From Bacteroidales bacterium (GTDB lineage Bacteria; Bacteroidota; Bacteroidia; Bacteroidales; JAAYJT01): a stretch of DNA of 51,596 nt. The notes below the pieces were generated by a model. The model was not told the DNA's origin. It saw only the letters and a list, made by a program, of their open reading frames with translations, and did no database searches. The DNA lies in the NCBI GenBank assembly GCA_012522795.1, contig JAAYJT010000071.1:1-51596 (forward strand), given 5' to 3'. Of this stretch, positions 3,803 through 50,548 are shown one piece after another. The position numbers were made by a program, and so were the translations under genes. How positions within the stretch are numbered: the first letter of the stretch is position 1; each line of letters opens with the position of its first letter.

Positions 3803-3858
3803 CGGTATTGTTTATCAAGCTGATTCTCAGCATTTTATTCACCCTCAAATTTTATTTT

Positions 3859-6800
3859 ATGCGAATTGCTACTTTATTGAACAGAACATTAGCATTAATA
3901 CTAATGTTTTTAATGTTATCGCCAGTTTTTGGCCAACGCGTTGAGTACAATTTCCCCGATGCGTGGGGGAATAATGGATTTAACCTTACACGGCATGATA
4001 ATTCCGGAGTAAGGGTAGTACACTCAATTACTCATCTATCACTCTTCGACTTTGAAACTGATGGAAATGTATTGAAAGCCATCGAAATGGAAGGTGTAAT
4101 TCTTCCGGGTCAGGAAGGTGCACCTAGTTTACCAGGTAATGGTAGATATATTGCTATTCCTCAGGGGGCTTCTGCTACATTAAAAGTAAATGCAGTAAGA
4201 AAAGAAATTGTGAAAAATATTGATTTGCTTCCGTCTTCCAATATACCTGTTGCGAGTGATGATTCTCCTTTAAGGTATGAAAAAGACATGTCAATATATG
4301 GTCTCAATGCCTTTTATCCAGCTGAACCATTTAGTTTGTCAGAGTCTACTACTATTCGCGGAGTTGATGTGGTAATGCTTGGCATTACACCATTTCAGTA
4401 CAACCCTGTAACCAAGGAGCTTATTATTTATCATGATATTGATATTGAGGTTAACTTTAAAGGCGGAAATAGCCAATATGGTGATAACCGGCTTCGTAAC
4501 CGCTGGTGGGATCCTATTTTGAAAGATATGATACTGAACAGCGATGCACTACCGGAAATTGATTATTCAGCACGCTATAACAACATGATTAACAACCGTA
4601 CTACCGGTTACGAATACATTGTTGTGGTGCCTAATGATCCTGTTTTTATTGCATGGGGCGACTCAATCAAGCAATTCCGTAACAGACAGGGAATCAGAAC
4701 GCAGGTCGTTACAACTGCAGAAATTGGTGGGAACAATCATGTACAAATAAAAAACTATATCAGCAATGCTTATAACAACTGGGATATAGCACCAGCTGCT
4801 GTTTTGTTAATGGCTGACTATGGAACTACAGGAAGTACCATTACCAGCGAAACAAGAAACGACCATCCTTATGGTCCGGCATATATATCAGATGTGTATT
4901 TTGGTGATATGAACAATAATCATCTGCCTGATATAACTCTTGCACGTATTACAGCTCGTCATGCTGCCGATTTACAGATCATGGTGCCCAAGTTCTTGAA
5001 TTATGAAAGAACTCCCTCAACCAATGCTAATTATTATAATGTACCTATTACTGCTATGGGCTGGCAAACTGAGCGTTGGTTCCAGCTCTGTTCTGAGATA
5101 GTTAATGGTTTCTGGGAATATGAACTCGGAAAACAACCATTGCGTCAAAATAATATTTATAGTGGTTCTCCAGGATCATCCTGGTCGTCAAATCCAAACA
5201 CAAGTATGATTGTGAATTATTTTGGACCTAATGGTTTAAATTATATTCCGGCAACACCTGCTCATCTCAATAACTTTGGCTGGGGTGCTAATGCTACAAC
5301 TATTAATCAGGCTATTAATGCCGGGGCTTATATGATCATGCACCGTGACCATGGCTATGAATATGGATGGGGAGAGCCCGATTATGGAAATACACATTTA
5401 TCAGGACTCAATAATGATGATTTGACACACGTGTTTTCAATCAACTGTCTTACTGGAAAATTCAATATTTCAGGAGAATGTTTTACAGAAGCTTTCCACA
5501 GACATCAAAAAGGTGCTTTAAGTGTTACCGCTGCCAGCGAGACTTCTTATTCATTTGTTAACGACGTTTATGTTTGGGGACTTATGGATAATATGTGGCC
5601 TGATTTTATGCCTGCTTATGGGACCACGCCTCCTTCGCGTGACATTTTACCGGCTTTTGGTAACACTGCAGGTAAATATTTCCTACAACAGTCAAACTGG
5701 CCATACAACCCAGAACATAAACAAATTACTTATTATTTGTTCCACCATCATGGTGATGCTTTCAGTACAGTTTATACCGAAATGCCTCAGCAACTTACTG
5801 TGAACCACATGCCTGTTTTACTCAGTGGTTTGGACGTATTTGAAGTTACTGCCAATCCGGGAGCTTTGATAGGCCTGACAGTTAATGGTGAGTTGATTGG
5901 TGTTGGAGAAGGAACAGGAATGCCGGTTTCTATTCCAATTCCACCGCAGGTTCCCGGAAACAATCTGCTTGTAACAATTACTCTTCAAAATTATTACCGT
6001 TACGAAGCCCTTCTCGAAATAATTCCTCCCGATGGACCATATGTTATTTATAATCAAAGCGTCATTAATGATTCGCAGGGTAATAACAATGGATTAATTG
6101 ATTATGGCGAATCAATCATTCTTGATATGTCATTGAAAAATGTTGGTCTTGATCCGGCTGTCGATGTAACGGCAACTTTGAGCACCACATCACAATATGT
6201 TACTATTACTGATAATTCACATGCCTTTGGTACTATTCAGCCTGATGAGATAGTGAGTATGCAAAATGCTTTTGCATTTGATGTTAGCGATGAAATTCCC
6301 GATAATTTTGTTATCCCATTTGTAGTAACAATGACAAGTGGAACAGAAACCTGGGAGAGCAATTTCAGTCTGATGGCTTATGCACCTTCCTTTGTTATTG
6401 GTAATCTCACTGTTTCTGATCCTCTTGGTAATAATAATGGTCAGCCAGATCCGGGAGAAACAATTGATTTAATAATTCCTACTTTAAATGAAGGGCATAG
6501 CCAGGCTACTAATGTCTCAGGTGTTATTACATGTTCAAGCCCGTATGTTACCATAGATGTTGGACAGGTAAGTTTTGCCACTCTTGATCCAAATCAGTCG
6601 GAGGACGCTGTGTTTACAGTAACCATTTCTGATGATGCTCCTATAGGTACTCCTATTACAATCAATTATAATGTAGGCTCCGGAGTTTATACAGCAAACA
6701 AGAGTTTTGTCATTAAGGTAGGTTTGATTATTGAAGATTTTGAAACCGGTGACTTTTCATCATTTACATGGATGTCAGGTGGGAATTTGCCATGGACAAT

Positions 6801-8733
6801 AACTAATACCGGTGCATTTGAAGGTACTTATGCTGCTAAATCGGGCGCAATCTCTCATAACCAGTCTACTCAGCTTATACTTGAATATGACGTTGGAGCA
6901 GATGATACTATTTCATTTTATCGTAGAGTGTCCTCTGAAAATAATTATGACCACCTTAAGTTTTATATAAATAATCAGGTTGCTGCACAGTGGTCAGGCA
7001 CTCAGGAATGGGCCAGGGTAGCTTTCCCGGTTACACCTGGATTTAAAGTTTTTAAATGGGAATATATGAAAGACGGATCAGTTTCTTCAGGAAGCGACTG
7101 TGCATGGATTGATTATATTGTGTTCCCTACTCCTGCTGCTTGTCCTTCTCCCAGGAACCTCCAGGTTGTTTCAACTTCATCAACTACTGCTCTGTTAAAC
7201 TGGTCGCCCGGAGGTACTGAAGACGAATGGGATCTTATATGGGGACCTAAAGGGTTTAATCCCGCCACTTCCGGAACATTAGTTTCAAATATTACTGAGG
7301 TTCCGTATCTTTTAACCGGATTGCAGGCTATAACTGAGTATGATTTTTATGTAAGAAGTTATTGCGATCCTACAACTACCAGTGCATGGAATGGTCCGGT
7401 TACGATTCAAACACAGTGTGATACATTTACATTGCCGTTTACCGAAGGTTTTGGAGGTCCGTCAGTAAGCTGTTGGACATTCCCTGATGGACAGGGTAAC
7501 TGGGGCTTCGGTTCTTCATATACACCACCATCAGGTAGTGCACCTAATGCATATTTTGGCTGGAGTCCGTCAATAACAAATTATTCACATTCATTGGTCA
7601 GCCCTCTTATGAGTGCTACTGGATTTACGGATATCAAACTGGATTTCAAATTATATATCAATAACTACAGCACTTCTACTGTTGAGCAGATGACAGTTGA
7701 ATATAAAGAATTCGATAGTACTGAATGGACTTTGGTAGAAAATTTCACCAATAGTGGTGGTACAGCTTCATTTAATCGTACAAACCTTCCTCTTGATGGA
7801 GTTGCCGGACAACTATTCCAGGTGCGCTTCCGCGCTCATGGCGGAAATAGTTATAATATAAACGGATGGGGACTTGATGATGTGGTTGTTCACGGTACTG
7901 AAGCACCATCAGTATTGCCGGGCGATGCAAACTGCGATGGAGTAGTAAACGTGCTTGATGGTATAACCATTGTTAGTTTTGTAACCGGAGGAGATCCTCA
8001 GCCATTCTGTTTTGATAATGCCGATGTAAATGAGGATGGAACTATTAATCTGCTTGATTTTATTGCTACAATTAACATAGTATTGAATGGCAAGAAAACC
8101 TCTCCTTACAGAGTGGATTCGGAAACAGCTCATATTTATTTGAATAGCAATGGAATAGAGCTCAGAAGTGATGGAACACTGGCAGGTCTGCAATTTGAGA
8201 TTTCAGGATTGAATGCTGAAAATCTGAAATTCTTACCCAAAGGCCTTGAGTATGCTACTTCAATGAAAGATAATAAGCTTCTTTGTATGATATTCAGTTT
8301 TGACAACACACCTATCCCTGCCGGAAAAATCCAGCTTTTCAGCTTTGAAAAAGAAACTTCCGACACTGAGTGGATTTCAGTGCTTGCCGGCAACCTGAAT
8401 GCTGAAGAAGTTAAGGTTATTAAACATATTGAAGGAAACACTGATCTATTTGCCGGAGAATATACTCTGAATGCATATCCAAATCCTTCACAAGGTAAGT
8501 TTCGTATTGAAGCTTATATACCATGTGCTTCTGAAACTGTAATTAAAATTACTGACATTATGGGCAGAGAAGTTACAAGGATTCATGAAGGCTATTTGAA
8601 GGAAGGAACTTTTACCTTTGATATTAACAGTAACCTCAGTAATGGTATTTATTTTCTGACTGTTCAGGCTTCACCAAAAAATGAAGCTGAGACTATAATT
8701 ATAAAACGTCAGAAACTGGTTGTTACTAATTAA
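3859..8733 (+). CDS. Gingipain-type C25 cysteine peptidase with dockerin, cohesin-like module and T9SS sorting domain
   Basis: A 1624-residue secreted endopeptidase. Domain order: signal peptide (to about 26, ending VFGQ); propeptide to about 240; C25 catalytic domain about 250-640; two Ig-like repeats, each opening with a GNNNG-plus-DYGE or DPGE motif; a jelly-roll domain (958-1095); fibronectin type III; a second jelly-roll (about 1188-1350); type I dockerin (1355-1410); a cohesin-like beta module; and a T9SS type A sorting domain from about 1537 (YPNPSQGK). The probable catalytic pair is His498 (in RDHGYEYGW) and Cys530 (in SINCLTGKF). Their 32-residue spacing is close to that of gingipain R as I recall it. 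By family, it should cross the outer membrane by T9SS and be anchored or released at the surface. Start chosen from the signal peptide and promoter position. Confidence 0.9.
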   Translation: MRIATLLNRTLALILMFLMLSPVFGQRVEYNFPDAWGNNGFNLTRHDNSGVRVVHSITHLSLFDFETDGNVLKAIEMEGVILPGQEGAPSLPGNGRYIAIPQGASATLKVNAVRKEIVKNIDLLPSSNIPVASDDSPLRYEKDMSIYGLNAFYPAEPFSLSESTTIRGVDVVMLGITPFQYNPVTKELIIYHDIDIEVNFKGGNSQYGDNRLRNRWWDPILKDMILNSDALPEIDYSARYNNMINNRTTGYEYIVVVPNDPVFIAWGDSIKQFRNRQGIRTQVVTTAEIGGNNHVQIKNYISNAYNNWDIAPAAVLLMADYGTTGSTITSETRNDHPYGPAYISDVYFGDMNNNHLPDITLARITARHAADLQIMVPKFLNYERTPSTNANYYNVPITAMGWQTERWFQLCSEIVNGFWEYELGKQPLRQNNIYSGSPGSSWSSNPNTSMIVNYFGPNGLNYIPATPAHLNNFGWGANATTINQAINAGAYMIMHRDHGYEYGWGEPDYGNTHLSGLNNDDLTHVFSINCLTGKFNISGECFTEAFHRHQKGALSVTAASETSYSFVNDVYVWGLMDNMWPDFMPAYGTTPPSRDILPAFGNTAGKYFLQQSNWPYNPEHKQITYYLFHHHGDAFSTVYTEMPQQLTVNHMPVLLSGLDVFEVTANPGALIGLTVNGELIGVGEGTGMPVSIPIPPQVPGNNLLVTITLQNYYRYEALLEIIPPDGPYVIYNQSVINDSQGNNNGLIDYGESIILDMSLKNVGLDPAVDVTATLSTTSQYVTITDNSHAFGTIQPDEIVSMQNAFAFDVSDEIPDNFVIPFVVTMTSGTETWESNFSLMAYAPSFVIGNLTVSDPLGNNNGQPDPGETIDLIIPTLNEGHSQATNVSGVITCSSPYVTIDVGQVSFATLDPNQSEDAVFTVTISDDAPIGTPITINYNVGSGVYTANKSFVIKVGLIIEDFETGDFSSFTWMSGGNLPWTITNTGAFEGTYAAKSGAISHNQSTQLILEYDVGADDTISFYRRVSSENNYDHLKFYINNQVAAQWSGTQEWARVAFPVTPGFKVFKWEYMKDGSVSSGSDCAWIDYIVFPTPAACPSPRNLQVVSTSSTTALLNWSPGGTEDEWDLIWGPKGFNPATSGTLVSNITEVPYLLTGLQAITEYDFYVRSYCDPTTTSAWNGPVTIQTQCDTFTLPFTEGFGGPSVSCWTFPDGQGNWGFGSSYTPPSGSAPNAYFGWSPSITNYSHSLVSPLMSATGFTDIKLDFKLYINNYSTSTVEQMTVEYKEFDSTEWTLVENFTNSGGTASFNRTNLPLDGVAGQLFQVRFRAHGGNSYNINGWGLDDVVVHGTEAPSVLPGDANCDGVVNVLDGITIVSFVTGGDPQPFCFDNADVNEDGTINLLDFIATINIVLNGKKTSPYRVDSETAHIYLNSNGIELRSDGTLAGLQFEISGLNAENLKFLPKGLEYATSMKDNKLLCMIFSFDNTPIPAGKIQLFSFEKETSDTEWISVLAGNLNAEEVKVIKHIEGNTDLFAGEYTLNAYPNPSQGKFRIEAYIPCASETVIKITDIMGREVTRIHEGYLKEGTFTFDINSNLSNGIYFLTVQASPKNEAETIIIKRQKLVVTN
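6730..8088 (+). repeat. Shared jelly-roll/FN3/jelly-roll/dockerin block, copy 1
   Basis: The 3' part of the C25 gene is homologous to the blocks in the two M14 genes: same domain order and long conserved stretches such as GSSYTPPSGSAPNA, WSPSITNYS and SYNINGWGLDD. This copy is the most divergent of the three. The dockerin occupies 7921-8088. Confidence 0.8.
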
Positions 8734-8755
8734 TAGTTTACTTTAGAATATATTG

Positions 8756-8802
8756 AATCGTCGGGTAGATGTTTTTTAGCAACTACCCGACGATTATTTA
8801 TT
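8756..8802 (+). terminator. Rho-independent terminator after the C25 gene
   Basis: A perfect 13-bp stem (AATCGTCGGGTAG at 8756-8768 with CTACCCGACGATT at 8783-8795), a 14-nt loop and then an A/T-rich tail, 22 bp after the stop. It separates the C25 and M14 transcription units. Confidence 0.8.
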
Positions 8803-8887
8803 TGGGACTTTAGTGTGAACAAATTATGATATATTCACTTATCAGTTAATAACTTCAATTTTCATTTATCAAATTAAATTTTAAATC

Positions 8888-11800
8888 ATGAAAAAACTCA
8901 TATTATTCTTTGTTGGTTTTTTTATTGTTGTTACACTTTTTGGGCAGGATAAAGTCATTATCAGACTCGACAAACCGCTGCCTGAAGATGTGAAATATTT
9001 CTCAACAAATAATTATGATATTGCCTCTGTACGACCTGGTGAATATCTTGATCTGGTAGTAACTACCAGTGAGTTTCAGAATCTTGTATCACAAGGATAT
9101 AATTTCAGGATTTATCAGACCATAGCTGAAATGGCTGCCAATCTGCAACCTGAAAAAGGTATTCCTGGTTATCGGACTTATGCTCAGGCCCTTGCTGAGT
9201 TACAGCAAATTGAGAATACATATCCCGATATTTGTAAACTATATAATATTGGTGAAACCAGAGGAAAGCAATATTATAATGCCGGAAATAATAACTATGT
9301 GAACTATCAGCATGATATCTGGGCACTTAAAGTCTCCGATAATGTTGAACTTGACGAAGATGAGCCGGCGATTTATTATATGGGGCTGCATCATGCACGT
9401 GAGCCGCTCAGTACTGAAGTTACTTTTTATGTATTGAACCATTTATTGCAGAATTATGGTGTTGACCCTGAGATCACAGAAGCTATTAATAGTAAGGAGA
9501 TATGGTTTATCCCCATTGTTAATCCTGACGGTCACAGAATTGTTATTGAACAGATAAATACCGATTGGCGAAAAAATATTAGGGATAACGACGGCAACGG
9601 ACAAATAACGAATGGAAGTTTTTATTATCCTGATGGTGTTGACCTGAACAGAAATTATTCATGGCATTGGGGAGAAGAAGGTACAAGTACAAACCCGTCA
9701 GATATAACCTATTGTGGACCAGAACCTTTTTCAGAACCTGAATTAATTGGAATTCGCGATTTATTGGCTGCCCGTCATTTTGTTGCTGGTATATCATATC
9801 ATACTTACAGCGAACTTGTTTTATGGCCTTATGGGTATACATCAAACGCAGTAGCTCCTGATGCCACTGCATTAGCAGCCTTGGGAACTGCTATGGGGAA
9901 TGCAATTCCAAAACTTGGTTCAGGCACCTATACTCCGCAACCTATATGGGCATTGTATCCTGCTTCAGGGGGTACAGATGATTATGCCTACGGAAAACAT
10001 GGTATTTTCTGCTATACTATTGAACTTGCTACTCAGTTTATACCTCCAGCTTCTCAGGTAATACAGGTGTGTCAGGATAATTTACAGGCTGCACTTATTT
10101 TGCTGAACAGAGTGAATAAATCTACACTTACAGGGCATGTAACCAACTCAGTAACAGGTGAGCCTGTGGTAGCTGAAGTATATATACAGGGAATTGACAA
10201 TACAGGATTGTATCGTGAACCATACAAGAGTAATGAAGCATTTGGCACATATTACAGAATGTTGCCCAATGGCAATTATACAATTACATTCTCAGCATTT
10301 GGTTATATATCACAAACTTTCAATAATGTTAACATCAATAATCTGAATCAAACTATTCTTGACATGCAGTTAGTTCCGGCACAGGTTGTTACAGTAACCG
10401 GAACCGTCATTGATGCTGATACTGGCTTACCGATTGAAAACGCTACAATACAGGTAATGGGAACCCCGCTTGAACCGATTCATACAAATGCATCAGGTCA
10501 ATACATAATTCCTGAAATCTATGAAAATACCTACACTTTCCGTGTTTATGCCATGGATTATCTTACAGTAAGTCAGGAAATAGCTATTAACCCTCAGAAT
10601 AATATTGTGGATTTTGAATTACATGAAGCACATGCTGTTAGTTTTGAGGATGGACAGTTTCCTGAGGGATGGACTTTCAGTGGCAACCTTCCCTGGATAA
10701 TTGACAATACAACAGCATGGGACGGAGCTTATTCTGCCCGCTCAGGTGCTATTGGCAACAGCCAGACATCTTCATTGATATATACTATGGAAACAGATAC
10801 CGAAGGAGTTATAAGCTTTTATTGTAAGGTTTCAAGTGAGGCTAATTATGATTTTCTGAGGTTCTACATTAATGACGAGCTGCAAGCACAATGGTCAGGC
10901 AATATGGATTGGGCAGAAGTTAGTTTTCCGGTTACTCCCGGAGTGAAAACTTTCCGCTGGACTTATTCTAAGGACGTTTCAGCTTCAGGTGGAAGCGATA
11001 AAGCTTGGATTGACTTTATCATTCTGCCATTCCCGGCAGCATATTCTGCTCCTAAAAACCTGACGGCTACTGTAGTTACGGCTAACTCAGCACAGCTAAA
11101 CTGGTTACCCGGCGGCGACGAAACAATTTGGGACGTAAGCTGGGGTCCGGCAGGAACAACTCCTTCACAAGGCACAATAATTGAAAATCTTACTAGTACT
11201 CAATATCAACTTACCGGATTGACACCTATAACTGAATATGTGTTTTATGTAAGAGGCAGTTATCCTGACAATCAGATGAGTGCCTGGGCAGGTCCTGCAC
11301 CGTTTACAACCCTTTGCGATGTATTCAGTTTACCATACTTTGAGCCTTTTGGAACACCTTTAGTCAGTTGCTGGACATTCCCTGAAGGTCAGGGTAACTG
11401 GAATTTTGGATCTTCATATACACCCCCGTCAGGTTCAGCGCCCAATGCATTTTTTGGCTGGAGCCCGTCAATAACCAATTATTCCTATTCGCTTGTCAGT
11501 CCTCTGTTCAGTGCAGTAGGTTTTTCTGATATAAAACTAGACTTTAAATTGTATATCAATAATTTCAGTACTTCCACTGTAGAACAAATGGCAGTTGAGT
11601 ATAAGACAATAGGCAGTAACGACTGGATCTTACTTGAAAATTTTACTAATTCAGGTGGTACAGCACAATTTAACCGCACCAATCAATTACTTGATGGAAT
11701 GGCTGGTCAGCATTTTCAGGTACGATTCCGTGCCCATGGAGCAAACAGCTATAATATAAATGGATGGGGGCTAGATGATATTAATTTTCATGGTGAAGCA

Positions 11801-12634
11801 CTGCCATCAGTTGTTCCCGGTGATGCTAACTGTGATGGAATCGTAAATATACTGGATGCTATTGCCATTGTTGATTTTATAGCTGGTAATGATCCGCATC
11901 CTTTCTGTTTCGAAAACGCTGATGTTACTGAAGATGGAATAATTAACATACTTGATGTTATTGGAACTGTTAACATTATACTTAATGGTAAGAAATCATC
12001 GGGATATGAATTTAATTCTGCTACAGCCAATATTTATCTTGGAAGTTCGGGTATTGAACTTGAAAGCGATGGAACCCTTGCCGGACTTCAGTTTGAAATT
12101 AGTGGTCTTAGTATTGAAATTCCTGAATTTTTGTTAAAAGGATATGAGTTTGTTACTGCAATTAAAGATGACAAACTTATTGGTATGATTTTCAGTTTTG
12201 ATAATACACCGATCCCTGCCGGCAGAATAAATTTGTTGAGTTTCAATAACGAATCGCATAGCGTAGAACTTGGATCTGTTATTGCAGGCAATTTAAATGC
12301 TGAAGAAGTTAGGGTCATAAAACATTTTACAGAAGGCAAAGATTTGTTTTCCGGTGAATTTCAACTAAATGCACATCCAAATCCATCGAATGGTGTGACA
12401 AATATTTCTATTATAGTCCCGATTTCTTCATGGGTATCAATAAAGATTTATGATATGCACGGGAAAGTCGTTTCTATAATTACAGAGAAGTCATATGATA
12501 AGGGTATTTATAATTTTGTGGCTAATGAAGGACGAATATTCAAATCCGGCATTTATACCATTCAATTAATTGCCTGTCCATTGGATACTATGGAAGATGT
12601 GATTCATAAGAATATAAAATTATTGATTAATTAA
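8888..12634 (+). CDS. M14 zinc carboxypeptidase with dockerin, cohesin-like module and T9SS sorting domain
   Basis: A 1248-residue secreted metallocarboxypeptidase. Signal peptide about 1-19 (ending TLFGQ). The M14 domain spans about 90-405, with zinc ligands His169 and Glu172 (HHAREP), His305 (SYHTYSE), the substrate-binding DLNRNY (252-257, with Arg255) and catalytic Glu379 (YTIELATQ). Two carboxypeptidase-regulatory-like beta domains follow (about 413-580), then jelly-roll, FN3, jelly-roll, a dockerin (978-1033), a cohesin-like module (about 1034-1155) and a T9SS sorting domain (HPNPSNG onward). All active-site residues are present, so it should remove C-terminal residues from peptides; the specificity pocket cannot be judged. 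It likely acts outside the cell on products of the neighbouring endopeptidases. It has its own terminator; I found no good TAnnTTTG upstream. Confidence 0.92.
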   Translation: MKKLILFFVGFFIVVTLFGQDKVIIRLDKPLPEDVKYFSTNNYDIASVRPGEYLDLVVTTSEFQNLVSQGYNFRIYQTIAEMAANLQPEKGIPGYRTYAQALAELQQIENTYPDICKLYNIGETRGKQYYNAGNNNYVNYQHDIWALKVSDNVELDEDEPAIYYMGLHHAREPLSTEVTFYVLNHLLQNYGVDPEITEAINSKEIWFIPIVNPDGHRIVIEQINTDWRKNIRDNDGNGQITNGSFYYPDGVDLNRNYSWHWGEEGTSTNPSDITYCGPEPFSEPELIGIRDLLAARHFVAGISYHTYSELVLWPYGYTSNAVAPDATALAALGTAMGNAIPKLGSGTYTPQPIWALYPASGGTDDYAYGKHGIFCYTIELATQFIPPASQVIQVCQDNLQAALILLNRVNKSTLTGHVTNSVTGEPVVAEVYIQGIDNTGLYREPYKSNEAFGTYYRMLPNGNYTITFSAFGYISQTFNNVNINNLNQTILDMQLVPAQVVTVTGTVIDADTGLPIENATIQVMGTPLEPIHTNASGQYIIPEIYENTYTFRVYAMDYLTVSQEIAINPQNNIVDFELHEAHAVSFEDGQFPEGWTFSGNLPWIIDNTTAWDGAYSARSGAIGNSQTSSLIYTMETDTEGVISFYCKVSSEANYDFLRFYINDELQAQWSGNMDWAEVSFPVTPGVKTFRWTYSKDVSASGGSDKAWIDFIILPFPAAYSAPKNLTATVVTANSAQLNWLPGGDETIWDVSWGPAGTTPSQGTIIENLTSTQYQLTGLTPITEYVFYVRGSYPDNQMSAWAGPAPFTTLCDVFSLPYFEPFGTPLVSCWTFPEGQGNWNFGSSYTPPSGSAPNAFFGWSPSITNYSYSLVSPLFSAVGFSDIKLDFKLYINNFSTSTVEQMAVEYKTIGSNDWILLENFTNSGGTAQFNRTNQLLDGMAGQHFQVRFRAHGANSYNINGWGLDDINFHGEALPSVVPGDANCDGIVNILDAIAIVDFIAGNDPHPFCFENADVTEDGIINILDVIGTVNIILNGKKSSGYEFNSATANIYLGSSGIELESDGTLAGLQFEISGLSIEIPEFLLKGYEFVTAIKDDKLIGMIFSFDNTPIPAGRINLLSFNNESHSVELGSVIAGNLNAEEVRVIKHFTEGKDLFSGEFQLNAHPNPSNGVTNISIIVPISSWVSIKIYDMHGKVVSIITEKSYDKGIYNFVANEGRIFKSGIYTIQLIACPLDTMEDVIHKNIKLLIN
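10631..11986 (+). repeat. Shared 1356-bp module block, copy 2
   Basis: From the HAVSFEDGQ motif to the end of the dockerin. It has exactly the same length as copy 3 in the next gene and is highly similar to it in DNA and protein. The dockerin occupies 11819-11986. Confidence 0.85.
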
Positions 12635-12651
12635 TTTTTAATAAACTGATA

Positions 12652-12710
12652 AAAATGTTGAAAACAGGCTAAAAAGAATTAAAAGCTTGTTTTCAACATT
12701 TTGCTTTTAT
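12652..12710 (+). terminator. Rho-independent terminator after the first M14 gene
   Basis: A long A/T-rich stem: AAAATGTTGAAAACA (12652-12666) pairs perfectly with TGTTTTCAACATTTT (12688-12702), extended inward by GGCT/AGCT pairing. A T-rich tail follows. It starts 18 bp after the stop codon. Confidence 0.75.
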
Positions 12711-12850
12711 TGAGTTTTGGATATTAGTAAGGATTGAAATTTATTTTCAATTCCGAATCATTTGTCATTAATTTAGCGTGATAAAACTGATCCTTGTTTA
12801 TTAAACAATTTCTTGTATAACGGTTTGTAATTAATTTGTTTTTTGCGAAC

Positions 12851-12877
12851 TTGTTAATTCAATAACATATACTTTTG
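12851..12877 (+). promoter_or_regulatory. Promoter of the second M14 gene
   Basis: TTG at 12851-12853, 16 nt, then TACTTTTG at 12870-12877, a match to TAnnTTTG. The spacing is identical to that before the C25 gene. The predicted leader is about 95 nt. Confidence 0.55.
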
Positions 12878-12975
12878 TGAAATATCTTATTTTGGTTTTA
12901 ATTATTAGAAGATATAAGCTTGCTTAAACCTTTTTAATATCTCATAAATCTCGTATAATCAATTAATTAAAAGTT

Positions 12976-15900
12976 ATGAAAAGATTTTTTGCTCTTCTGA
13001 CAATGTTGTTTTTTGTCTCAATCGCTTATCCACAGGATAAGGTGATTATCAGGCTTGAGGATCCAAAGCCTGAACAGGTAAAATATTTTGCAACCAATAA
13101 TTACGATATCGCATCGTACCGCCCTGCCGAATATCTTGATCTTGTGGTTAGTAAAAATGAATTTTCTGATCTGCTGGCACAGGGTTATCGGTTTAGATTA
13201 TTTCAAACCGAAGCTGAAATGGCTGCCAATCTGGTTTCTGCCGATGGTTTACCGGGTTACCGGACATATGCTGAATCTCTTGCCGAACTTCAGCAAATGG
13301 TAATTGATCATCCAACTATATGTAAATTATATGATATCGGAGATACGCGCGGGAAGGAATACTATAATGCCGGAAACAATAATTATGTAAACTATCAGCA
13401 TGATATCTGGGCTTTAAAAGTAACCTCGAATGTTGAGCTTGACGAAGATAAACCGGCTGTATTTTACATGGGCTTGCATCATGCACGCGAGCCACTAAGT
13501 GTTGAAGTTACATTTCATGTTTTAAATCATTTGTTACAGAATTATGGTGTGAACCCGGAAATCACAAATCATATCAATACCAAAGAAATCTGGTTCATAC
13601 CAAATGTAAACCCTGACGGTCATAAAATAGTAATAGATCAGATAAATACAAGCTGGCGAAAAAATATCAGGGATAACGATGGTAATGGACAAATAACATT
13701 GAATGGCTATGATGGAGTTGATTTGAACCGTAATTACGATTGGCAATGGGGTGTTAATGCAAGTCATTCGCCAAGTGATGAAACCTATTGTGGTCCGGCA
13801 GCATGGTCAGAACCTGAAATAGTGGCTTTGCGTGATTTAATTGATTCTCGTCATTTTGTTTCTGGTATTTCATATCATACTTATGGTGAACTGGTATTAT
13901 GGCCTTATGGTTATGAAAGCAATGCCATTGTACCTGATAATATTGCAATGGCAGCACTTGGCACCGCATTGGCACAGGCAATTCCAAGCCAGGGATCAGG
14001 AACGTATTATCCCGAGCCTTCATGGCAGCTTTATCCTCATGGTGGAGTTTTAAATGATTACGCCTATGGAAAGCATGGAATTTTTTGCTATACAGTAGAA
14101 TTGGCAACTCAGTTTATACCTCCTGCTGCGCAGGTTCCAGTAATATGCCAGAATAATCTGCAGGCTGCATTACTATTACTTGCCCGAACCGATAAATCAA
14201 CGCTTACAGGGCATGTGACCAATTCAGTAACTGGTGAACCGGTAGTGGCTGAAATACATATTCCGGTAATTGACAATACCGGAATGTATCGCGATCCATA
14301 CAAAAGCGATGAAGCATTTGGCAGATATTACAGGTTATTGTCCAATGGTAATTATACGGTTACTTTCTCAGCCTTTGGGTATATTTCACAAACATTTACC
14401 AATGTTAACATCAATAATCTGGGTCAAACTGTTCTTAACGTAGAATTAGTTCCAAGCCAGGTTATTACTGTAACCGGAACAGTTACTGATGCCGATACCG
14501 GTTTACCTATTGAGAATGCCACAATCCAGGTTATGGGAACCCCACTTGAACCGGTTCATACCAATGCGGCAGGTCAATATATAATACCTGAGATTTATGA
14601 AAACATTTATAATTTCCGTGTATATGCCATTGATTATCTTACTGTTATTCAAGAGGTGAGCGTAACATTACAGAATACTGTTGTGGATTTTGAGTTGCAT
14701 GAAGCACATGCTGTTAGTTTTGAGGATGGCCAGTTTCCTGAAGGATGGACATTCAGCGGAAATCTTCCGTGGATAATAGACAATACTACGGCATGGGATG
14801 GAGCCTATTCTGCCCGCTCAGGTACTATTGGCAATAGCCAGACATCTTCAATGATATATATAATGGAGACAGATACTGAAGGATTAATTAGTTTTTACCG
14901 TAAGGTTTCAAGTGAGGCTAATTATGATTTTCTGAGTTTTTATATTAATGACCAGCTGCAAGCACAGTGGTCGGGCAATATGGATTGGGCAGAAGTTAGT
15001 TTTCCGGTCACTGCGGGATATAAAACTTTTCGCTGGACATATTCCAAGGATGTTTCAGTTTCAGGTGGAAGCGACAAAGCCTGGATAGACTTTATTACAT
15101 TTCCATTCCCTGCTGCTTATTCTGCTCCTAAGAATCTCACTGCTACTTCAGTTACAGCCACCTCTGCCCAGCTAAACTGGATGCCTGGAGGCGATGAAGC
15201 AATTTGGGATGTAAGCTGGGGTCTTGCAGGATTTACTCCTTCGCAAGGCACAATAGTAGAGGATCTTACTACAATGACTTACCAACTTACCGGTTTGACA
15301 CCTGTAACCGGATATGAATTTTATGTAAGAGGTCATTATCCTGATAATCAGATAAGTGCCTGGGCAGGCCCTGCTCCGTTTACAACGCTTTGCGATATAT
15401 TCAGTTTGCCATATTTTGAGCCTTTTGGAACACCGTCAGTCAGTTGCTGGACTTTCCCTGAAGGTCAGGGTAACTGGGGCTTCGGTTCTTCATATACACC
15501 ACCCTCAGGTACTGCGCCCAATGCATTTTTTGGCTGGAGCCCGTCAATAACCAATTATTCCTATTCGCTTGTCAGTCCTCTGATCAGCGCAGTTGGTTTT
15601 TCTGATATAAAACTGGACTTTAAATTGTATATCAATAATTACAGTACTTCCACTGTAGAACAAATGGCAGTTGAATACAAGACCATAGGCAGTAACGACT
15701 GGATTTTACTTGAGAATTTGACTAATTCCGGTGGTACAGTTCAATTTGTCCGTACCAATCAGCTTTTAAATGGTATGGCCGGTCATGAATTTCAGGTACG
15801 ATTTCGCGCTAATGGAGCGAATAGTTACAATATAAATGGCTGGGGACTTGATGATATTAATTTTCATGGTGAAGCACTGCCATCAGTTGTTCCCGGTGAT

Positions 15901-16065
15901 GCAAACTGCGATGGAATAGTAAACATTATTGATGCTATTACAATAATAAATTATGTTTCCGGTCTAAATCCGCAACCTTTCTGTTTTGAAAATGCTGATG
16001 TAACCGAAGATGGAATAATCAATGTGCTGGATGTCATTGCAACCGTTAATATTGTTGTTAACTGA
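12976..16065 (+). CDS. M14 zinc carboxypeptidase ending in a dockerin (no T9SS sorting domain)
   Basis: A 1029-residue paralogue of the preceding gene. It has a signal peptide (ending SIAYPQ), an M14 domain with His169/Glu172 (HHAREP), His301 (SYHTYGE), DLNRNY and catalytic Glu375 (YTVELATQ), two regulatory-like beta domains, jelly-roll, FN3, jelly-roll and a dockerin at 974-1029. The protein stops with the last residue of the dockerin: the cohesin-like module and sorting domain of the paralogue are absent. The sequence after the TGA does not resume homology in any frame I checked, so a simple frameshift is unlikely. Without a sorting domain it cannot be a standard T9SS substrate. It may remain periplasmic, or reach the surface by binding another protein through its dockerin (inference). 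The active site looks intact. Confidence 0.9.
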   Translation: MKRFFALLTMLFFVSIAYPQDKVIIRLEDPKPEQVKYFATNNYDIASYRPAEYLDLVVSKNEFSDLLAQGYRFRLFQTEAEMAANLVSADGLPGYRTYAESLAELQQMVIDHPTICKLYDIGDTRGKEYYNAGNNNYVNYQHDIWALKVTSNVELDEDKPAVFYMGLHHAREPLSVEVTFHVLNHLLQNYGVNPEITNHINTKEIWFIPNVNPDGHKIVIDQINTSWRKNIRDNDGNGQITLNGYDGVDLNRNYDWQWGVNASHSPSDETYCGPAAWSEPEIVALRDLIDSRHFVSGISYHTYGELVLWPYGYESNAIVPDNIAMAALGTALAQAIPSQGSGTYYPEPSWQLYPHGGVLNDYAYGKHGIFCYTVELATQFIPPAAQVPVICQNNLQAALLLLARTDKSTLTGHVTNSVTGEPVVAEIHIPVIDNTGMYRDPYKSDEAFGRYYRLLSNGNYTVTFSAFGYISQTFTNVNINNLGQTVLNVELVPSQVITVTGTVTDADTGLPIENATIQVMGTPLEPVHTNAAGQYIIPEIYENIYNFRVYAIDYLTVIQEVSVTLQNTVVDFELHEAHAVSFEDGQFPEGWTFSGNLPWIIDNTTAWDGAYSARSGTIGNSQTSSMIYIMETDTEGLISFYRKVSSEANYDFLSFYINDQLQAQWSGNMDWAEVSFPVTAGYKTFRWTYSKDVSVSGGSDKAWIDFITFPFPAAYSAPKNLTATSVTATSAQLNWMPGGDEAIWDVSWGLAGFTPSQGTIVEDLTTMTYQLTGLTPVTGYEFYVRGHYPDNQISAWAGPAPFTTLCDIFSLPYFEPFGTPSVSCWTFPEGQGNWGFGSSYTPPSGTAPNAFFGWSPSITNYSYSLVSPLISAVGFSDIKLDFKLYINNYSTSTVEQMAVEYKTIGSNDWILLENLTNSGGTVQFVRTNQLLNGMAGHEFQVRFRANGANSYNINGWGLDDINFHGEALPSVVPGDANCDGIVNIIDAITIINYVSGLNPQPFCFENADVTEDGIINVLDVIATVNIVVN
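14707..16062 (+). repeat. Shared 1356-bp module block, copy 3
   Basis: Same start motif, same length and same end (last dockerin codon) as copy 2. The dockerin occupies 15895-16062, directly before the stop codon. Confidence 0.85.
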
Positions 16066-16096
16066 AAGCATGATTATTAAAATGCTTTGATCCTAA

Positions 16097-16146
16097 ACTA
16101 CCGGGAGTGGGGTTGAGAATTCTGAAATTGGCAGACTTCCGGTAGT
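16097..16146 (+). terminator. Inverted repeat between the second M14 gene and the C10 gene
   Basis: A 12-bp stem with one G-U pair (ACTACCGGGAGT at 16097-16108 with ACTTCCGGTAGT at 16135-16146) and a 26-nt loop. It follows a weaker AAAGCAT/ATGCTTT hairpin at 16065-16088. No good T-run follows, so it could be a transcript-end structure or part of the C10 leader. Confidence 0.4.
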
Positions 16147-16217
16147 GAGCATTTAACTGAAAAATCTTCAATGCATGAAAAAAACATATGTTCTTTAATT
16201 TAAATCCAATGTCACCA

Positions 16218-18902
16218 ATGAAAATTAAAAAATTATCAATTCTACTTCTTGTGATGTTTTGCTTTAGTACACAACTTAAAGCAGAAAAGATTGAACAGGA
16301 AGAAGCCCGTACTGTGGCTCTGACATTTATGGTTGAACGCCTAAATATTTTTGCTGATAATAATGATTTTAACCTTAATGTTGCCAATGTTGTCGTAAGA
16401 TATTATGAAGACCTGCCGGTATATTATGCAGTGAATTTTGCTGATGGCGGTTTTGTTATTGTTTCGGCTGATGATATTCTGAAACCGATAATTGGTTATG
16501 CATTTAAAGGAAATTACTCTACTGAGGATCACCCGGAAGCTTTTGCCGGTTTTATAAATAACATTGCTGAAGAAGCTGCAACCGGAATTCGTATGAACCT
16601 TGAAGCTTCCAGTACTGATAAGGCTGAATGGAGTTTTTTGAAAAGCGGTACAATAAGGTCTTTCGATACTGACGCTATTACAAACCTTGACCCTTTAATT
16701 ATAACACCATGGAATCAGGACTTCCCGTACAACGCACTTTGTCCTGAGGATCCTGCCGGACCAGGAGGTCATGTTTATGCGGGTTGTGTTGCCACAGCAA
16801 TGTCAATGATCATGTATTACTATCGTTATCCTGAGGTTGGACAGGGTTCAAAAACTCATTACAGTTCCTACGGACCATTGTATGCTAACTTTGGACAGAC
16901 ATATTATCAGTGGGATGCCATGCTTACTTCCCTTGGAACTGCTGGTGGAAATTCTATACATGCAATGTCAGAAATACAGTATCATTGTGGTATTGCAGTG
17001 AATATGCATTATTCACCCAACGGCTCAGGAGCGGTTAGCGATGTTGTACCTTCTGCAGCATATAATTACTTCAGGTATAATAGTCAGATAAGTGTAGCTT
17101 CACGCAGCTCGTATACTTATGATAATTGGGTAATCATGCTTAAGGGTCAGCTTGATCAGGGTTATCCTTTATATTACGCCGGACATAGTAATGATAGTGG
17201 TCATGCTTTTTTATGTGATGGTTATCAGCAGGTTGGCAATGATGTTAATTTCCATTTCAACTGGGGATGGGGTGGGGCTTACGACGGTTATTACCATCTC
17301 AATAACCTTAATCCGGGGAATTCACCTCCTTTTAGCAACTGGCAGCAAACTATACGTAATTTCTACCCACCTTCAACAAATTACCCCTACTATAATACTA
17401 ATGGAGAAACTAATATAATTCCATTTATGCGTGGAACTATTGAAGATGGAAGTGGTCCTATACATAATTATCTTAATAATGCTGATTATAGATGGCTAAT
17501 AGCTCCAACGGATTCAGTTACCTCAATTACTCTTAATTTTTTGAAATTCAATACACTCACAAATGACATTGTAACTGTTTATAATGGTTCTGACGAAACC
17601 GCACCGATATTAGGATCGTTTTCCGGTAATACTTTGCCTACATCGGTTACTACAACAGGTAGTCGTATGTTTATAAAATTTGTAACCGATGCCAATGGTA
17701 CTGCTCCGGGATGGCTGGCAGAGTTTACAAGCACCCTGCCGGTTTATTGCAGTGGACTTACAACTGTACTTGAGCCTGAAGGTGTTTTTAGTGATGGAAG
17801 TGGTGATCAGAATTATAATCATAATAGTTTTTGCAGATGGTTTATTAAACCTCCGGGTGCCGATAGTGTTACTTTGTATTTTACAGCATTGAACACAGAG
17901 CCAGAAAAAGATTATGTCCAGATAATGCAGATCCCAGGTAATCAGATACTTGGACAGTTTTCTGGGAATACTATTCCACCACCAGTAACTTCAAATACCG
18001 GCCAGATGATGGTGATTTTTCGCTCCGATGCTTTTTATAATGCTCCCGGTTGGGAAGCGGTATGGACTACCGGCGAAAGTCAGATATTACACGGCGATGC
18101 CAATTGTGATGGTATAGTTAATATATTGGACATTGTTACCATAATAGCCTACATACTTGATCAGAACCCGGCTTCGTTCTGTTTTGACAATGCTGATATT
18201 AACAATGATGGTACAATTAATATTCTGGATGCGGTAGGAACAGTTAATATCATACTTAATAATAAAACTACAACGATTTTAAATTCAAAAACATCCAGAA
18301 TATTCCTAAACAAAGATGGTATTGATTTTCAAAGTGACGGCACTGTTGCCGGATTACAGTTTGAAATAAATGGGCTTCAAACCAATAATCTGAATTTATT
18401 ACTAAGTGGATATAAATTTGCTGAGGCAATTGTGGATGGGAAACTTGTGGGTTTGGTATACAGCCTTGACAATAAGCCATTTCCATCGGGAAGGATCAGG
18501 CTATTTACCCTTAATAACCCTGCTACAGACCTTACTTGGGGAGAAATAATAGTTGCCAATTATAATGCAGAAGAAGTTAAAGTTGAGAAATTTGAATATG
18601 CTCCTTTTGTTTTAGCGGAAGATTATGTTTTGAAGACTTTTCCGAACCCTTCAAAAAGCAGGTTTTTTGTTGAAGTCGAAATACCGGTTCTTTCTGAAAC
18701 AATGATTCGTCTAACTGACATTTCAGGAAAGGAAGTGCTAAAGCTTCAGGAAAATAAGCTTAACGAAGGAACTTACCAGTTTGAGTTAAATACCGGAAAC
18801 ATCTTAAAAGCAGGAAATTATCTTCTGCATTTTAATGCCATACCTGAAGGTCAATCAGATAACCCTGTCAGTAAAAATCTGAAAATAATGATTGCTGATT
18901 AA
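16218..18902 (+). CDS. C10 (streptopain-type) cysteine peptidase with CUB-like domains, dockerin, cohesin-like module and T9SS sorting domain
   Basis: An 894-residue secreted cysteine peptidase. Signal peptide (MKIKKLSILLLVMFCFSTQL...), then a propeptide of the Spi/streptopain-inhibitor type (EEARTVALTFM... VYYAVNFADGGFVIVSADD), then the C10 domain with catalytic Cys190 (YAGCVATAMSMIMYYY) and His329 (SGHAFLCDGYQ), plus the conserved NWGWGG. Two CUB-like beta domains follow (each with YNG or QIM... then GQFSGN or GSFSGN), a dockerin (626-681), a cohesin-like module and a T9SS sorting domain (FPNPSKS onward). I chose the third in-frame ATG (16218) because the signal peptide begins there; ATGs at 16188 and 16209 are possible. 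Likely a surface or secreted protease made as a zymogen, cleaved to release the propeptide (family knowledge). Confidence 0.9.
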   Translation: MKIKKLSILLLVMFCFSTQLKAEKIEQEEARTVALTFMVERLNIFADNNDFNLNVANVVVRYYEDLPVYYAVNFADGGFVIVSADDILKPIIGYAFKGNYSTEDHPEAFAGFINNIAEEAATGIRMNLEASSTDKAEWSFLKSGTIRSFDTDAITNLDPLIITPWNQDFPYNALCPEDPAGPGGHVYAGCVATAMSMIMYYYRYPEVGQGSKTHYSSYGPLYANFGQTYYQWDAMLTSLGTAGGNSIHAMSEIQYHCGIAVNMHYSPNGSGAVSDVVPSAAYNYFRYNSQISVASRSSYTYDNWVIMLKGQLDQGYPLYYAGHSNDSGHAFLCDGYQQVGNDVNFHFNWGWGGAYDGYYHLNNLNPGNSPPFSNWQQTIRNFYPPSTNYPYYNTNGETNIIPFMRGTIEDGSGPIHNYLNNADYRWLIAPTDSVTSITLNFLKFNTLTNDIVTVYNGSDETAPILGSFSGNTLPTSVTTTGSRMFIKFVTDANGTAPGWLAEFTSTLPVYCSGLTTVLEPEGVFSDGSGDQNYNHNSFCRWFIKPPGADSVTLYFTALNTEPEKDYVQIMQIPGNQILGQFSGNTIPPPVTSNTGQMMVIFRSDAFYNAPGWEAVWTTGESQILHGDANCDGIVNILDIVTIIAYILDQNPASFCFDNADINNDGTINILDAVGTVNIILNNKTTTILNSKTSRIFLNKDGIDFQSDGTVAGLQFEINGLQTNNLNLLLSGYKFAEAIVDGKLVGLVYSLDNKPFPSGRIRLFTLNNPATDLTWGEIIVANYNAEEVKVEKFEYAPFVLAEDYVLKTFPNPSKSRFFVEVEIPVLSETMIRLTDISGKEVLKLQENKLNEGTYQFELNTGNILKAGNYLLHFNAIPEGQSDNPVSKNLKIMIAD

Positions 18903-20356: not shown

Positions 20357-20555
20357 TTTCTGAAATCGGGGCAATAATAATCTGGAAGGGGAAAGCGTAA
20401 TGTCATTTTCTGAAAAAGTTATATTTTTGGTCTGACAGATAAATACTGCCGGCAACAAATCACTCTGAGTATTCAGGTATCTGAACTGAAAGATGCTCAA
20501 TGCTGTATATAATAATATGCTTGATACGTTGGTGAAATTTCGAAAAAGAAAGTTT

Positions 20556-47701: not shown

Positions 47702-50548
47702 TTAGTATTCGTTTAGAACAATATTTACAATTCCTATTACATCAAACACATTTATAATTCCGTCAGCATTTACATCGGCATTCTCGAAACAGAATGGCTG
47801 CGGGTTGTTTCCAACAACATGATTTACAACAGTAATGACATCAATCACATTGACTATTCCATCGCAATTTGCATCACCTAAAAGCAAATCGGACAGGGTA
47901 GTGAAAGATATCTGATTTCCGTATGCTGTACCCATGTCATTAACTGCATAGGCTCTTAAATAATATTGAGTATTTGGGTTAAGACCCTGGATCAGACTTA
48001 CAAAACTTCCTTCACCACTGCCATCTGTAGTGTGATCATCGCTGATAGTTGGATTCGTATCTGTACTCCAACAAACACCACGCTGACTGACTTCAGAACC
48101 TCCATCCCAGGTAACATTGCCACCTGACACCGCTGATGTGGAGGTTATTTCTGCAACTTCTGCCGTGCTTACCATTGGCGTTGTAGCGCCGGTTCCTGTA
48201 ATCGTAATGCTATCAATACAAACTCCATGTCCGAGGTTTGAAACCGCTTCAAAAGTAATATAGTAAGTAGGGCTTGCTTCGGGCAACGTAAGGATAACTT
48301 CTGTCCAGTTTGCAACATTTGAATTATACGTAGCCAAAGTTTGCCATGTGCCGTTAACTGATGTTTTATACTTTACCTTTAGTTCATCCTGATAGTTGAA
48401 AATAAACAAGGTTCGAAGCTGATTGGTATAATGGAATTTAAGTTCTGTTGATTGATAGCCTGCCAGATTAAGTTCCGGTGAAACCAGTCTTGTGGTATTG
48501 CCTCCGCCGGTAAATCCGCTAACCTTAAAATAAGCGTTTTTAGTACCCTGATAAGCATTGCCAGGATTACTTCCACCGTTGCCGGCACCAATTGCCCAGT
48601 CAGTTGAGGCGGACACATATTCCTGCGACCAGCATACGGGTATCGCAGATGATTGTTCAAAACCTTCTTCAAAAGGAAGCTGAAAAACTTCGCATCCGGT
48701 AAATGCTGATGTTGAACGTCCGCTTGAATACTGGTTCTGATCATTGTATGACCATAGCCGGTAAAAATATTGCATGGCAGGTTCCAGACCTAAATGCAGG
48801 AACTCGGTATCCCCTCCTTTATATAGGATAGTTCCGCCTTCCGGAAGTGTATTCCCTGGCTGATAAACCATTCCTGAATCAGGTATTCCGAAAACGTTAT
48901 CAGTTGACCATGCAAGCATAACATTATTCCCATCAGGATTTTTATTCCATGAAACCGAAATTTCACTTGAGCTCAGTGAAGTAGCGGAAATATTTGATGG
49001 GTTCATAATACCGGTAAGATAGTTTTGAGCATCCACTAATGCCTGATATGCATTAAGTCTGCCGCTGCCCAGCTGGCCAATATAGTTTGGATTAACTGCA
49101 TAATGATCGTCTGTTGAGTTTATCAGGATCTCAGCAAGATCTTCAGGAGTCAGTAGTCCGTATATATGAGATATTACCTGGGCTGCCACTCCCGATACGT
49201 GAGGGCATGCCATTGAAGTTCCCTGAAAGAATCCATAAGTGCTGTTATTCAGAGTACTCAGTACACCTCTATTAGACGCAGTATTAGTTTCACCGCCCGG
49301 TGCTGAAATATCAACCCAGGCTCCATAATTTGAATAATACGAGCGTACATCACTGTGATTTGTAGCTGCTACGGCAAATGTTCCTGAATAATATCCGGGA
49401 TACCATGCGCCTGTAGCATTATCGTTGCCGGCTGCAAAAATTGTTATTCCGCCGTCAATAAGCGCATCGCCTCCTCCGTTTATGTTAAAATAGTCAATGG
49501 CATCAAGAACGTTCTGGTCGTATACACCGGCGTTGCTATAACCCCAACTGTTTTGAGATATTGCAGCACCATTGTCGGCTGCCCAGATAGGAGCAAGATG
49601 AAAACCACCATTAGTCATCCCGGAGAAAACCTGACATGACATGAGTCTTACACCGTCGTTATTGCCTGTTCCTCCTGCAATCCCAGCAACACCAAGATTG
49701 TTGTTGTTTACTGCAGAAATGGTTCCTCCAACGTGGGTTCCATGATCGCCCGGATTGATATTACTGTTTCCTGAAACAAAATTATATCCTATTTCTGACC
49801 ACATATTGCCGGCCAGATCGGGATGATTGTATTGAATTCCCTCATCAATTACAGCAACTATCAGGTCGCTGCTACCTTTTTCAATATCCCATGCCTGAAA
49901 CAATTTTATGTCTGAACCCGGTGTTCCGCCTGTTTGCCCCGTATTGTTATAATGCCATTGTTCGTCGAGTCGCGGGTCGTTGGTAGTCCAGTCGGTAGAT
50001 GAATTTTCGGGATTTGAAGCAGGTTCTGTCATAACCCTTTGAGCAACACCTGTATAAAGCACTTTCTTAAATTCCGGTGCTGCATATTCAACTTCGTCAA
50101 GCGATCGATATCCGGCAACTATGGTTTTAATATCAGCACCCGATTCAAATGTAAGCCTGTACCAAAGATGAAAACCCCATGCTTTGTGTTTTTGTGTAAA
50201 AGTGTTATTAAATGCATTACTTAAGAATTCCTGTTTTACATTTTGAGCCCTGAACAGATCATTTAATCTGTCAACGGGTTCAATATTAAAACGAACGAGT
50301 CCGTTGCTTAGTCTGGTAGCAGGTTGTTGTTCAAGCTGTTCGGCATATTCAGGTTTGAATTTCAGAAGCACGACACCATCTTCGTAAGCGTCAGATGACA
50401 CACTTTGTAAATCAATAGGAGGTCGTTCGCCGCGAACTACTCTATAATTTTCGTTAATGGTTTGTGTTTGACCAGGTTTGATAAGACCAAACATGACAAT
50501 TACCAGCATAACAAATGCTGTAGTCCTGAAAAGGATCGGTTTTTTCAT
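47702..50548 (-). CDS. S8 subtilase with C-terminal dockerin (no T9SS sorting domain)
   Basis: A 948-residue exported serine peptidase. Signal peptide (MKKPILFRTTAFVMLVIVMFGLIKPGQTQ), an N-terminal propeptide (about 30-160), then the S8 domain with Asp235 (AVIDEGIQYNHPDL), His269 (GDHGTHVGGT) and Ser445 (GTSMACPHVSG). The triad and the oxyanion-region Asn (AAGNDN) are all present. Next come an FN3-like domain, a jelly-roll domain (about 630-790), another FN3-like domain (VSTAEVAEITSTSAVSGGNV...) and a dockerin at 891-946, followed only by Glu-Tyr and the stop. As with the second M14 enzyme, no cohesin-like module or sorting domain follows. A terminator 28 bp downstream shows the gene end is natural, not a recent break. 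Confidence 0.92.
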   Translation of the reverse strand: MKKPILFRTTAFVMLVIVMFGLIKPGQTQTINENYRVVRGERPPIDLQSVSSDAYEDGVVLLKFKPEYAEQLEQQPATRLSNGLVRFNIEPVDRLNDLFRAQNVKQEFLSNAFNNTFTQKHKAWGFHLWYRLTFESGADIKTIVAGYRSLDEVEYAAPEFKKVLYTGVAQRVMTEPASNPENSSTDWTTNDPRLDEQWHYNNTGQTGGTPGSDIKLFQAWDIEKGSSDLIVAVIDEGIQYNHPDLAGNMWSEIGYNFVSGNSNINPGDHGTHVGGTISAVNNNNLGVAGIAGGTGNNDGVRLMSCQVFSGMTNGGFHLAPIWAADNGAAISQNSWGYSNAGVYDQNVLDAIDYFNINGGGDALIDGGITIFAAGNDNATGAWYPGYYSGTFAVAATNHSDVRSYYSNYGAWVDISAPGGETNTASNRGVLSTLNNSTYGFFQGTSMACPHVSGVAAQVISHIYGLLTPEDLAEILINSTDDHYAVNPNYIGQLGSGRLNAYQALVDAQNYLTGIMNPSNISATSLSSSEISVSWNKNPDGNNVMLAWSTDNVFGIPDSGMVYQPGNTLPEGGTILYKGGDTEFLHLGLEPAMQYFYRLWSYNDQNQYSSGRSTSAFTGCEVFQLPFEEGFEQSSAIPVCWSQEYVSASTDWAIGAGNGGSNPGNAYQGTKNAYFKVSGFTGGGNTTRLVSPELNLAGYQSTELKFHYTNQLRTLFIFNYQDELKVKYKTSVNGTWQTLATYNSNVANWTEVILTLPEASPTYYITFEAVSNLGHGVCIDSITITGTGATTPMVSTAEVAEITSTSAVSGGNVTWDGGSEVSQRGVCWSTDTNPTISDDHTTDGSGEGSFVSLIQGLNPNTQYYLRAYAVNDMGTAYGNQISFTTLSDLLLGDANCDGIVNVIDVITVVNHVVGNNPQPFCFENADVNADGIINVFDVIGIVNIVLNEY

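Follow-up and report, generated by a model that had tools for sequence, protein, structure and literature searches.

The five dockerin-bearing peptidases encoded in a window of 51,596 nucleotides from a Bacteroidales bacterium are likely to be part of a multi-enzyme system on the cell surface that is built on cohesins and dockerins, is centred on proteolysis and is encoded in several gene groups, of which the window holds one. Scaffoldins with tandem cohesins, sorted by the T9SS, would be set on the cell surface. Their cohesins would receive the enzymes that bear a dockerin, among which peptidases are numerous (C25, M14, C10, S8 and M28). Small Cohesin-Dockerin proteins would act as adaptors between the levels, while enzymes of the Dockerin-module-T9SS kind would carry a divergent cohesin beside their dockerin and would themselves be sorted to the surface. 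Such a system would work like a cellulosome, but we do not class it as a plant-fibre-degrading cellulosome.

Dockerin-bearing peptidases and the T9SS

The window is contig C47 of a genome of 2.88 Mb (G000, here the own genome; 100 contigs, 97% complete). The initial annotation had assigned the five proteins to the peptidase families C25, M14, M14, C10 and S8 and had given each a type I dockerin. Both assignments hold up in Pfam, with 137 to 219 bits for the peptidase domains (Table 1) and 26.6-35.0 bits for Dockerin_1 against a cut-off of 22.9, so that all five proteins lie above the score required for PF00404. Against a profile built from the dockerins of the own genome each of the five also reaches 96-100 bits. 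The translations contain the catalytic motifs HxxE in both M14 proteins, HGTHVGG and GTSMACPHVSG in S8, GCVAT in C10 and NCLTG in C25. For the C25 gene the ATG at 3859, chosen before, is a likelier start than the TTG at 3808.

In three of the proteins (C25, first M14 and C10) the dockerin is followed, as had been described, first by a conserved module and then by a type A sorting tail of the T9SS. NCBIfam TIGR04183 passes in all three; Pfam passes in C25 and C10 and stays just below its cut-off in the first M14 protein (24.0 against 27). The second M14 and the S8 proteins end at the dockerin, 9 and 11 residues past the Pfam match, and neither Pfam nor TIGR04183 finds a type A sorting domain in them.

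Table 1. Positions of the peptidase genes and their C-terminal parts in the window
Feature	Position	Strand	Evidence
C25 (gingipain-type) peptidase with Dockerin-module-T9SS tail	3859..8733	+	Pfam C25 139.7 bits, propeptide C25 71.7 bits, translation
Dockerin of C25 protein	7918..8097	+	Pfam; own profile 97 bits
Post-dockerin module of C25 protein, divergent cohesin fold	8104..8433	+	AF2 pLDDT 92.3, Foldseek, VIA-align, profile
T9SS type A sorting domain of C25 protein	8464..8730	+	Pfam, TIGR04183
First M14 carboxypeptidase with Dockerin-module-T9SS tail	8888..12634	+	Pfam M14 218.8 bits
Dockerin of first M14 protein	11816..11995	+	Pfam, own profile
Post-dockerin module of first M14 protein	12005..12331	+	Module profile
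T9SS sorting domain of first M14 protein	12362..12631	+	TIGR04183 25.2 bits against 23
Second M14 carboxypeptidase, ends at dockerin	12976..16065	+	Pfam M14 191.7 bits
C-terminal dockerin of second M14 protein	15892..16062	+	Pfam, own profile
C10 (streptopain-type) peptidase with Dockerin-module-T9SS tail	16188..18902	+	Pfam C10 187.8 bits
Dockerin of C10 protein	18090..18269	+	Pfam, own profile
Post-dockerin module of C10 protein	18270..18599	+	Module profile
T9SS sorting domain of C10 protein	18627..18899	+	Pfam, TIGR04183
S8 subtilase, ends at dockerin	47702..50548	-	Pfam S8 137 bits
C-terminal dockerin of S8 protein	47705..47881	-	Pfam, own profile

Elsewhere in the window, positions 20493-21251 hold an ORF of 252 aa that matches only the N-terminal domain of GH123 and is perhaps a piece of a longer enzyme gene. 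Efflux genes occupy the stretch 26067-46617, namely those for an outer-membrane efflux protein and three MacB/FtsX-type permeases; a histidine kinase and a sigma-54 response regulator are encoded there on the opposite strand.

The own genome contains 52 dockerin matches at E <=5e-4, which correspond to about 51 dockerin proteins. Both calcium-binding loops are kept across these 51 dockerins. The dockerin is the last domain in 27 of the proteins and is followed by a cohesin-type module in 15; six are Cohesin-Dockerin proteins and three have the dockerin at the N-terminus. In the latter three (on C48, C21 and C79) Fib_succ_major-like domains follow the dockerin, the reverse of the usual order, and Pfam confirms this for C21. 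An extra conserved cysteine pair (NCDG ... PFCF), possibly a disulfide, is present in the dockerin at 7918-8097 of the window and in most dockerins of the genome. One dockerin consensus is common to sorted and tail-less proteins. Helix 1 has N at column 20 in 29 of 42 enzyme-type dockerins and in none of the six adaptors (p 0.002, with related copies included), a difference that hints at a second specificity of the adaptor dockerins.

Peptidases make up 13 of the about 51 dockerin proteins and come from five families (four C25, four S8, three M14, one C10 and one M28), so that the earlier view of a protease-centred set is supported by Pfam scans across the own genome, where the dockerin-bearing proteins are rich in peptidases. 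The majority are non-peptidases, which counts against a complex centred on proteolysis; they include a peptidyl-arginine deiminase, a PNGase-F-type C-terminal domain and GH18, CotH, FG-GAP and LRR proteins. When the Pfam-scanned dockerin proteins (all except a few small ones) were screened for cellulases and hemicellulases, just one GH18 was seen. The substrate of the system is presumably protein.

T9SS machinery is encoded in the own genome, with SprA (2659 bits) and two complete PorU proteins. The genes of these two PorU-type sortases lie in tandem (C80:18454-21753, 1354 bits, and C80:22318-25584, 1173 bits). The 27 dockerin proteins that lack a T9SS tail count against a surface complex; under the model that we favour, these tail-less enzymes would reach the surface as well.

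The post-dockerin module is a divergent cohesin

The module has about 110 aa and is present in 13 copies in the own genome, always in the order dockerin, module, T9SS tail. Relatives from other MAGs, including Cock-type sediment bins (CSSed), have the same order in every case in which enough of the sequence is present. No Pfam model covers the module, and none of the 13 copies gives a Cohesin match at E <=1. It does not reach the PF00963 gathering score, and we therefore do not class it as a member of PF00963.

The initial annotation had called the module cohesin-like, and this is borne out both by its predicted fold and by its homology to scaffold-type cohesins. AlphaFold2, run on an alignment of 12 sequences, predicts a cohesin fold of nine strands with a pLDDT of 92.3. 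When this model was compared with the PDB by Foldseek, the best 29 rows were all cohesins (best 4dh2, E 8e-5). The best 34 rows of VIA-align were likewise all cohesins, with 6kgf_C at Z 11.3 over 104 of 113 residues and 2.3 A, while the first entry unrelated to cohesins followed at Z 8.0. When three domains were modelled together, the matches of the middle one were again cohesins, and those of the tail were PorU and various Ig-like domains.

For the sequence comparison a broader module alignment was made from the 13 own-genome copies (A1) and divergent copies from G005 and G053. Against scaffold-type cohesins, of which the C41 members (above the cut-off) and the C54 members (below it) are themselves matched by Pfam Cohesin, hhalign gives a probability of 93.2% and E 2.9e-7. 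One cohesin of a G023 protein bridges the two groups and fits both profiles (47.6 and 33.3 bits). The narrow profile A1 was set aside: against a mixed cohesin set (A2) it reached a probability of 5%, and it found nothing in Pfam and PDB profile searches. The sequence evidence for homology thus varies with the alignment chosen, whereas the evidence from the fold does not. The module is a shortened, divergent cohesin.

Putative scaffoldins and adaptors, and conservation in the order

A search of the genome for a scaffoldin with several cohesins had been suggested, and multi-cohesin proteins are indeed encoded on contigs C85, C80 and C62 of the own genome. Pfam Cohesin gives nine matches above its cut-off; a scaffold-type cohesin profile (A5) gives 30. 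A search by Pfam Cohesin alone was discarded, as it led to C62 and mostly missed C85 and C80. The first repeat of the C85 protein and the C54 cohesin are among those below the Pfam cut-off. The C85 protein has at least 1716 aa and ten cohesins with carboxypeptidase-regulatory-like spacers. Its gene runs off the contig, so that the anchor is out of view, a point against a surface complex, and it is immediately preceded by a row of six genes of the Dockerin-module-T9SS kind (two C25, one S8, one Omp28-like and two others). The C80 protein has four full cohesins, one partial cohesin and a T9SS-like tail; the C62 protein has three cohesins. A single-cohesin protein of 384 aa has a tail and would be an anchor, and a further protein of 157 aa is a free cohesin. 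Six proteins of about 230 aa, two each on C53 and C59 and one each on C78 and C56, consist of a cohesin with a dockerin behind it. The contig ends C54/C83, C55/C36, C85, C80 and C74 interrupt cohesin genes, and two pairs have a short overlapping protein sequence. Since the breaks fall in cohesin repeats, the true number of cohesins is probably higher than counted here, where the halves C85/C80, C54/C83 and C55/C36 were kept separate. We infer from these sequences that the dockerins of the own genome bind its cohesins.

Of 60 relatives, five have scaffold-type cohesins, namely the own genome (30), G005 (24), G059 (4), G023 (3) and G001 (2), and dockerin and cohesin counts are correlated across the 60 (Spearman 0.47, p 1.6e-4). 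The cohesins of G041 and G053 were set aside, as they are paired with a different dockerin type (GGVNSTDAL...). Across 393 genomes of the order, scaffold-type cohesins occur in 24 and the module in 20; both are present in 16, where about 1.2 would be expected (Fisher p 3e-19, a statistic that ignores phylogeny). Fourteen genomes, which fall into ten families as numbered in the genome set, have a module gene and a scaffold-type cohesin gene on the same strand, the module gene being upstream at a distance of 20-276 bp, as calculated from gene coordinates. Outside the own genome the protein upstream of the cohesin gene is a peptidase in five of the eight cases scanned (S8 in G457, G577, G427 and G059, M6 in G382). 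The other three (G511, G005 and G023) lack a recognisable peptidase domain, which counts against the proposal. Genes for S8-dockerin-module proteins are also present in G025 and G614, where no cohesin gene was seen. A contig filed under a Thioalkalivibrio MAG (L086, SKOF01000500.1) encodes a typical Dockerin-module-T9SS protein and is probably mis-binned Bacteroidales DNA.

A minimal version of the system is that of G023, in which a single Pfam-detected dockerin protein, of the Dockerin-module-T9SS kind, is encoded beside a protein with three cohesins. Recruitment of tail-less enzymes via the module is thus unnecessary for the core system, and the pair suggests that the core contact is that between dockerin and scaffoldin.

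Role of the module and relation to known systems

Judged from these gene sets, the role of main receptor probably falls to the separate scaffoldins with their several cohesins and not to the module inside the enzymes. It is possible but doubtful that the module in the sorted enzymes is a working receptor for tail-less dockerin enzymes, by which Dockerin-module-T9SS proteins would form surface pairs or chains. Its nine-strand cohesin fold, the beta-3 motif [AG]-x-Q-F-[DE] that it has in common with scaffold cohesins in the profile alignment, and the identical dockerin consensus of sorted and tail-less proteins would all fit such a receptor. With the tail removed, the module would moreover adjoin the membrane anchor and so resemble OlpA and OlpC, single anchored cohesins with structures that rank among its best matches in Foldseek and VIA-align. 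However, the minimal genomes G023 and G059 have the module and a multi-cohesin protein with few or no other dockerins, and the module, which falls about 20 residues short of the length of scaffold cohesins, always stands beside its own dockerin, so that a role in cis fits too. That it packs on this dockerin or spaces it from the sorting domain, with no binding in trans and with the rest of the system at work, is a serious possibility, if short of likely. X-modules beside dockerins are a known parallel, and wherever both ends are sequenced the module sits directly between the dockerin and, nearly always, the T9SS tail; but a cohesin fold with conserved beta-3 positions exceeds the needs of a spacer.

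We regard as improbable a further role, in which the cohesin of the module is a real receptor, so that tail-less dockerin enzymes are captured by sorted ones while still in the periplasm and are taken along by them across the type IX translocon. If true, Dockerin-cohesin-T9SS proteins would be carriers for secretion in addition to building blocks of the surface. It would also surprise us if there were no complex at all and the dockerins and cohesin-like domains served only as spacers, stabilised by calcium, on ordinary secreted proteins of Bacteroidota. In favour of this, many relatives without the system have scattered Pfam-type cohesins and single dockerins, but spacers would hardly account for the co-occurrence and gene adjacency in ten families, for proteins with 3-10 tandem cohesins, or for Cohesin-Dockerin proteins that resemble cellulosome adaptors. 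A surface system built on scaffoldins remains the reading that we prefer.

Bacteroidetes genomes have been described as having no cohesins and dockerins (PMC5831590). The system would largely escape standard annotation because its cohesins fall mostly below the Pfam cut-off. Our literature search for similar systems found one case, that of Ca. Stygibacter (Cloacimonadota), with dockerins on S8, C25, GH18 and GH57 enzymes and a cohesin scaffoldin of 3,755 aa with a CTD (PMC8542988). Both this putative cellulosome-like complex and the system described here are inferred from MAGs only and have dockerins on S8 and C25 peptidases and on GH18, together with a scaffoldin of repeated cohesins, which in Ca. 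Stygibacter has a C-terminal surface-attachment domain (PMC8542988). Ca. Stygibacter, however, belongs to another phylum and has one scaffoldin, bearing CBM2/CBM3 domains, and the accessible part of its description makes no mention of a Dockerin-cohesin-T9SS cassette, of Cohesin-Dockerin adaptors or of a conserved gene pair (PMC8542988). As far as the literature searched goes, this system in Bacteroidales is new, and so are its cassette, the scaffoldins that annotation hides and the gene pair that is conserved.

With the clostridial and ruminococcal cellulosomes the system shares type I dockerins, tandem-cohesin scaffoldins, Cohesin-Dockerin adaptors and single anchored cohesins, and by sequence the closest PDB cohesin is 5n5p, R. 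flavefaciens ScaB (E 3e-6). In contrast to those complexes it has the T9SS in place of SLH or sortase anchoring and peptidases in place of cellulases, and no CBM-bearing scaffoldin was seen. The dockerin peptidases of R. flavefaciens sit inside a plant-fibre complex, a true cellulosome (PMC2930009). Catalytic domains, propeptides and the type A sorting domain are as in the gingipain-type T9SS cargo of Porphyromonas (C25, C10), the difference being that here a dockerin and a cohesin module stand between enzyme and sorting domain. The non-cellulosomal cohesin 2xdh of Archaeoglobus fulgidus has the same fold (Foldseek rank 2; VIA-align rank 3, Z 10.8), but the module is shorter, is fused behind a dockerin and is followed by a T9SS tail.

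If our reading is right, ten family-level lineages of one order would have a cohesin-dockerin system displayed by the T9SS, in which the conserved enzyme is often a secreted peptidase. The system supplies new candidate cohesin-dockerin pairs and raises the question by which route enzymes with a dockerin but no T9SS tail get out of the cell. It also suggests a way in which an uncultured proteolytic bacterium may concentrate many proteases on its surface.
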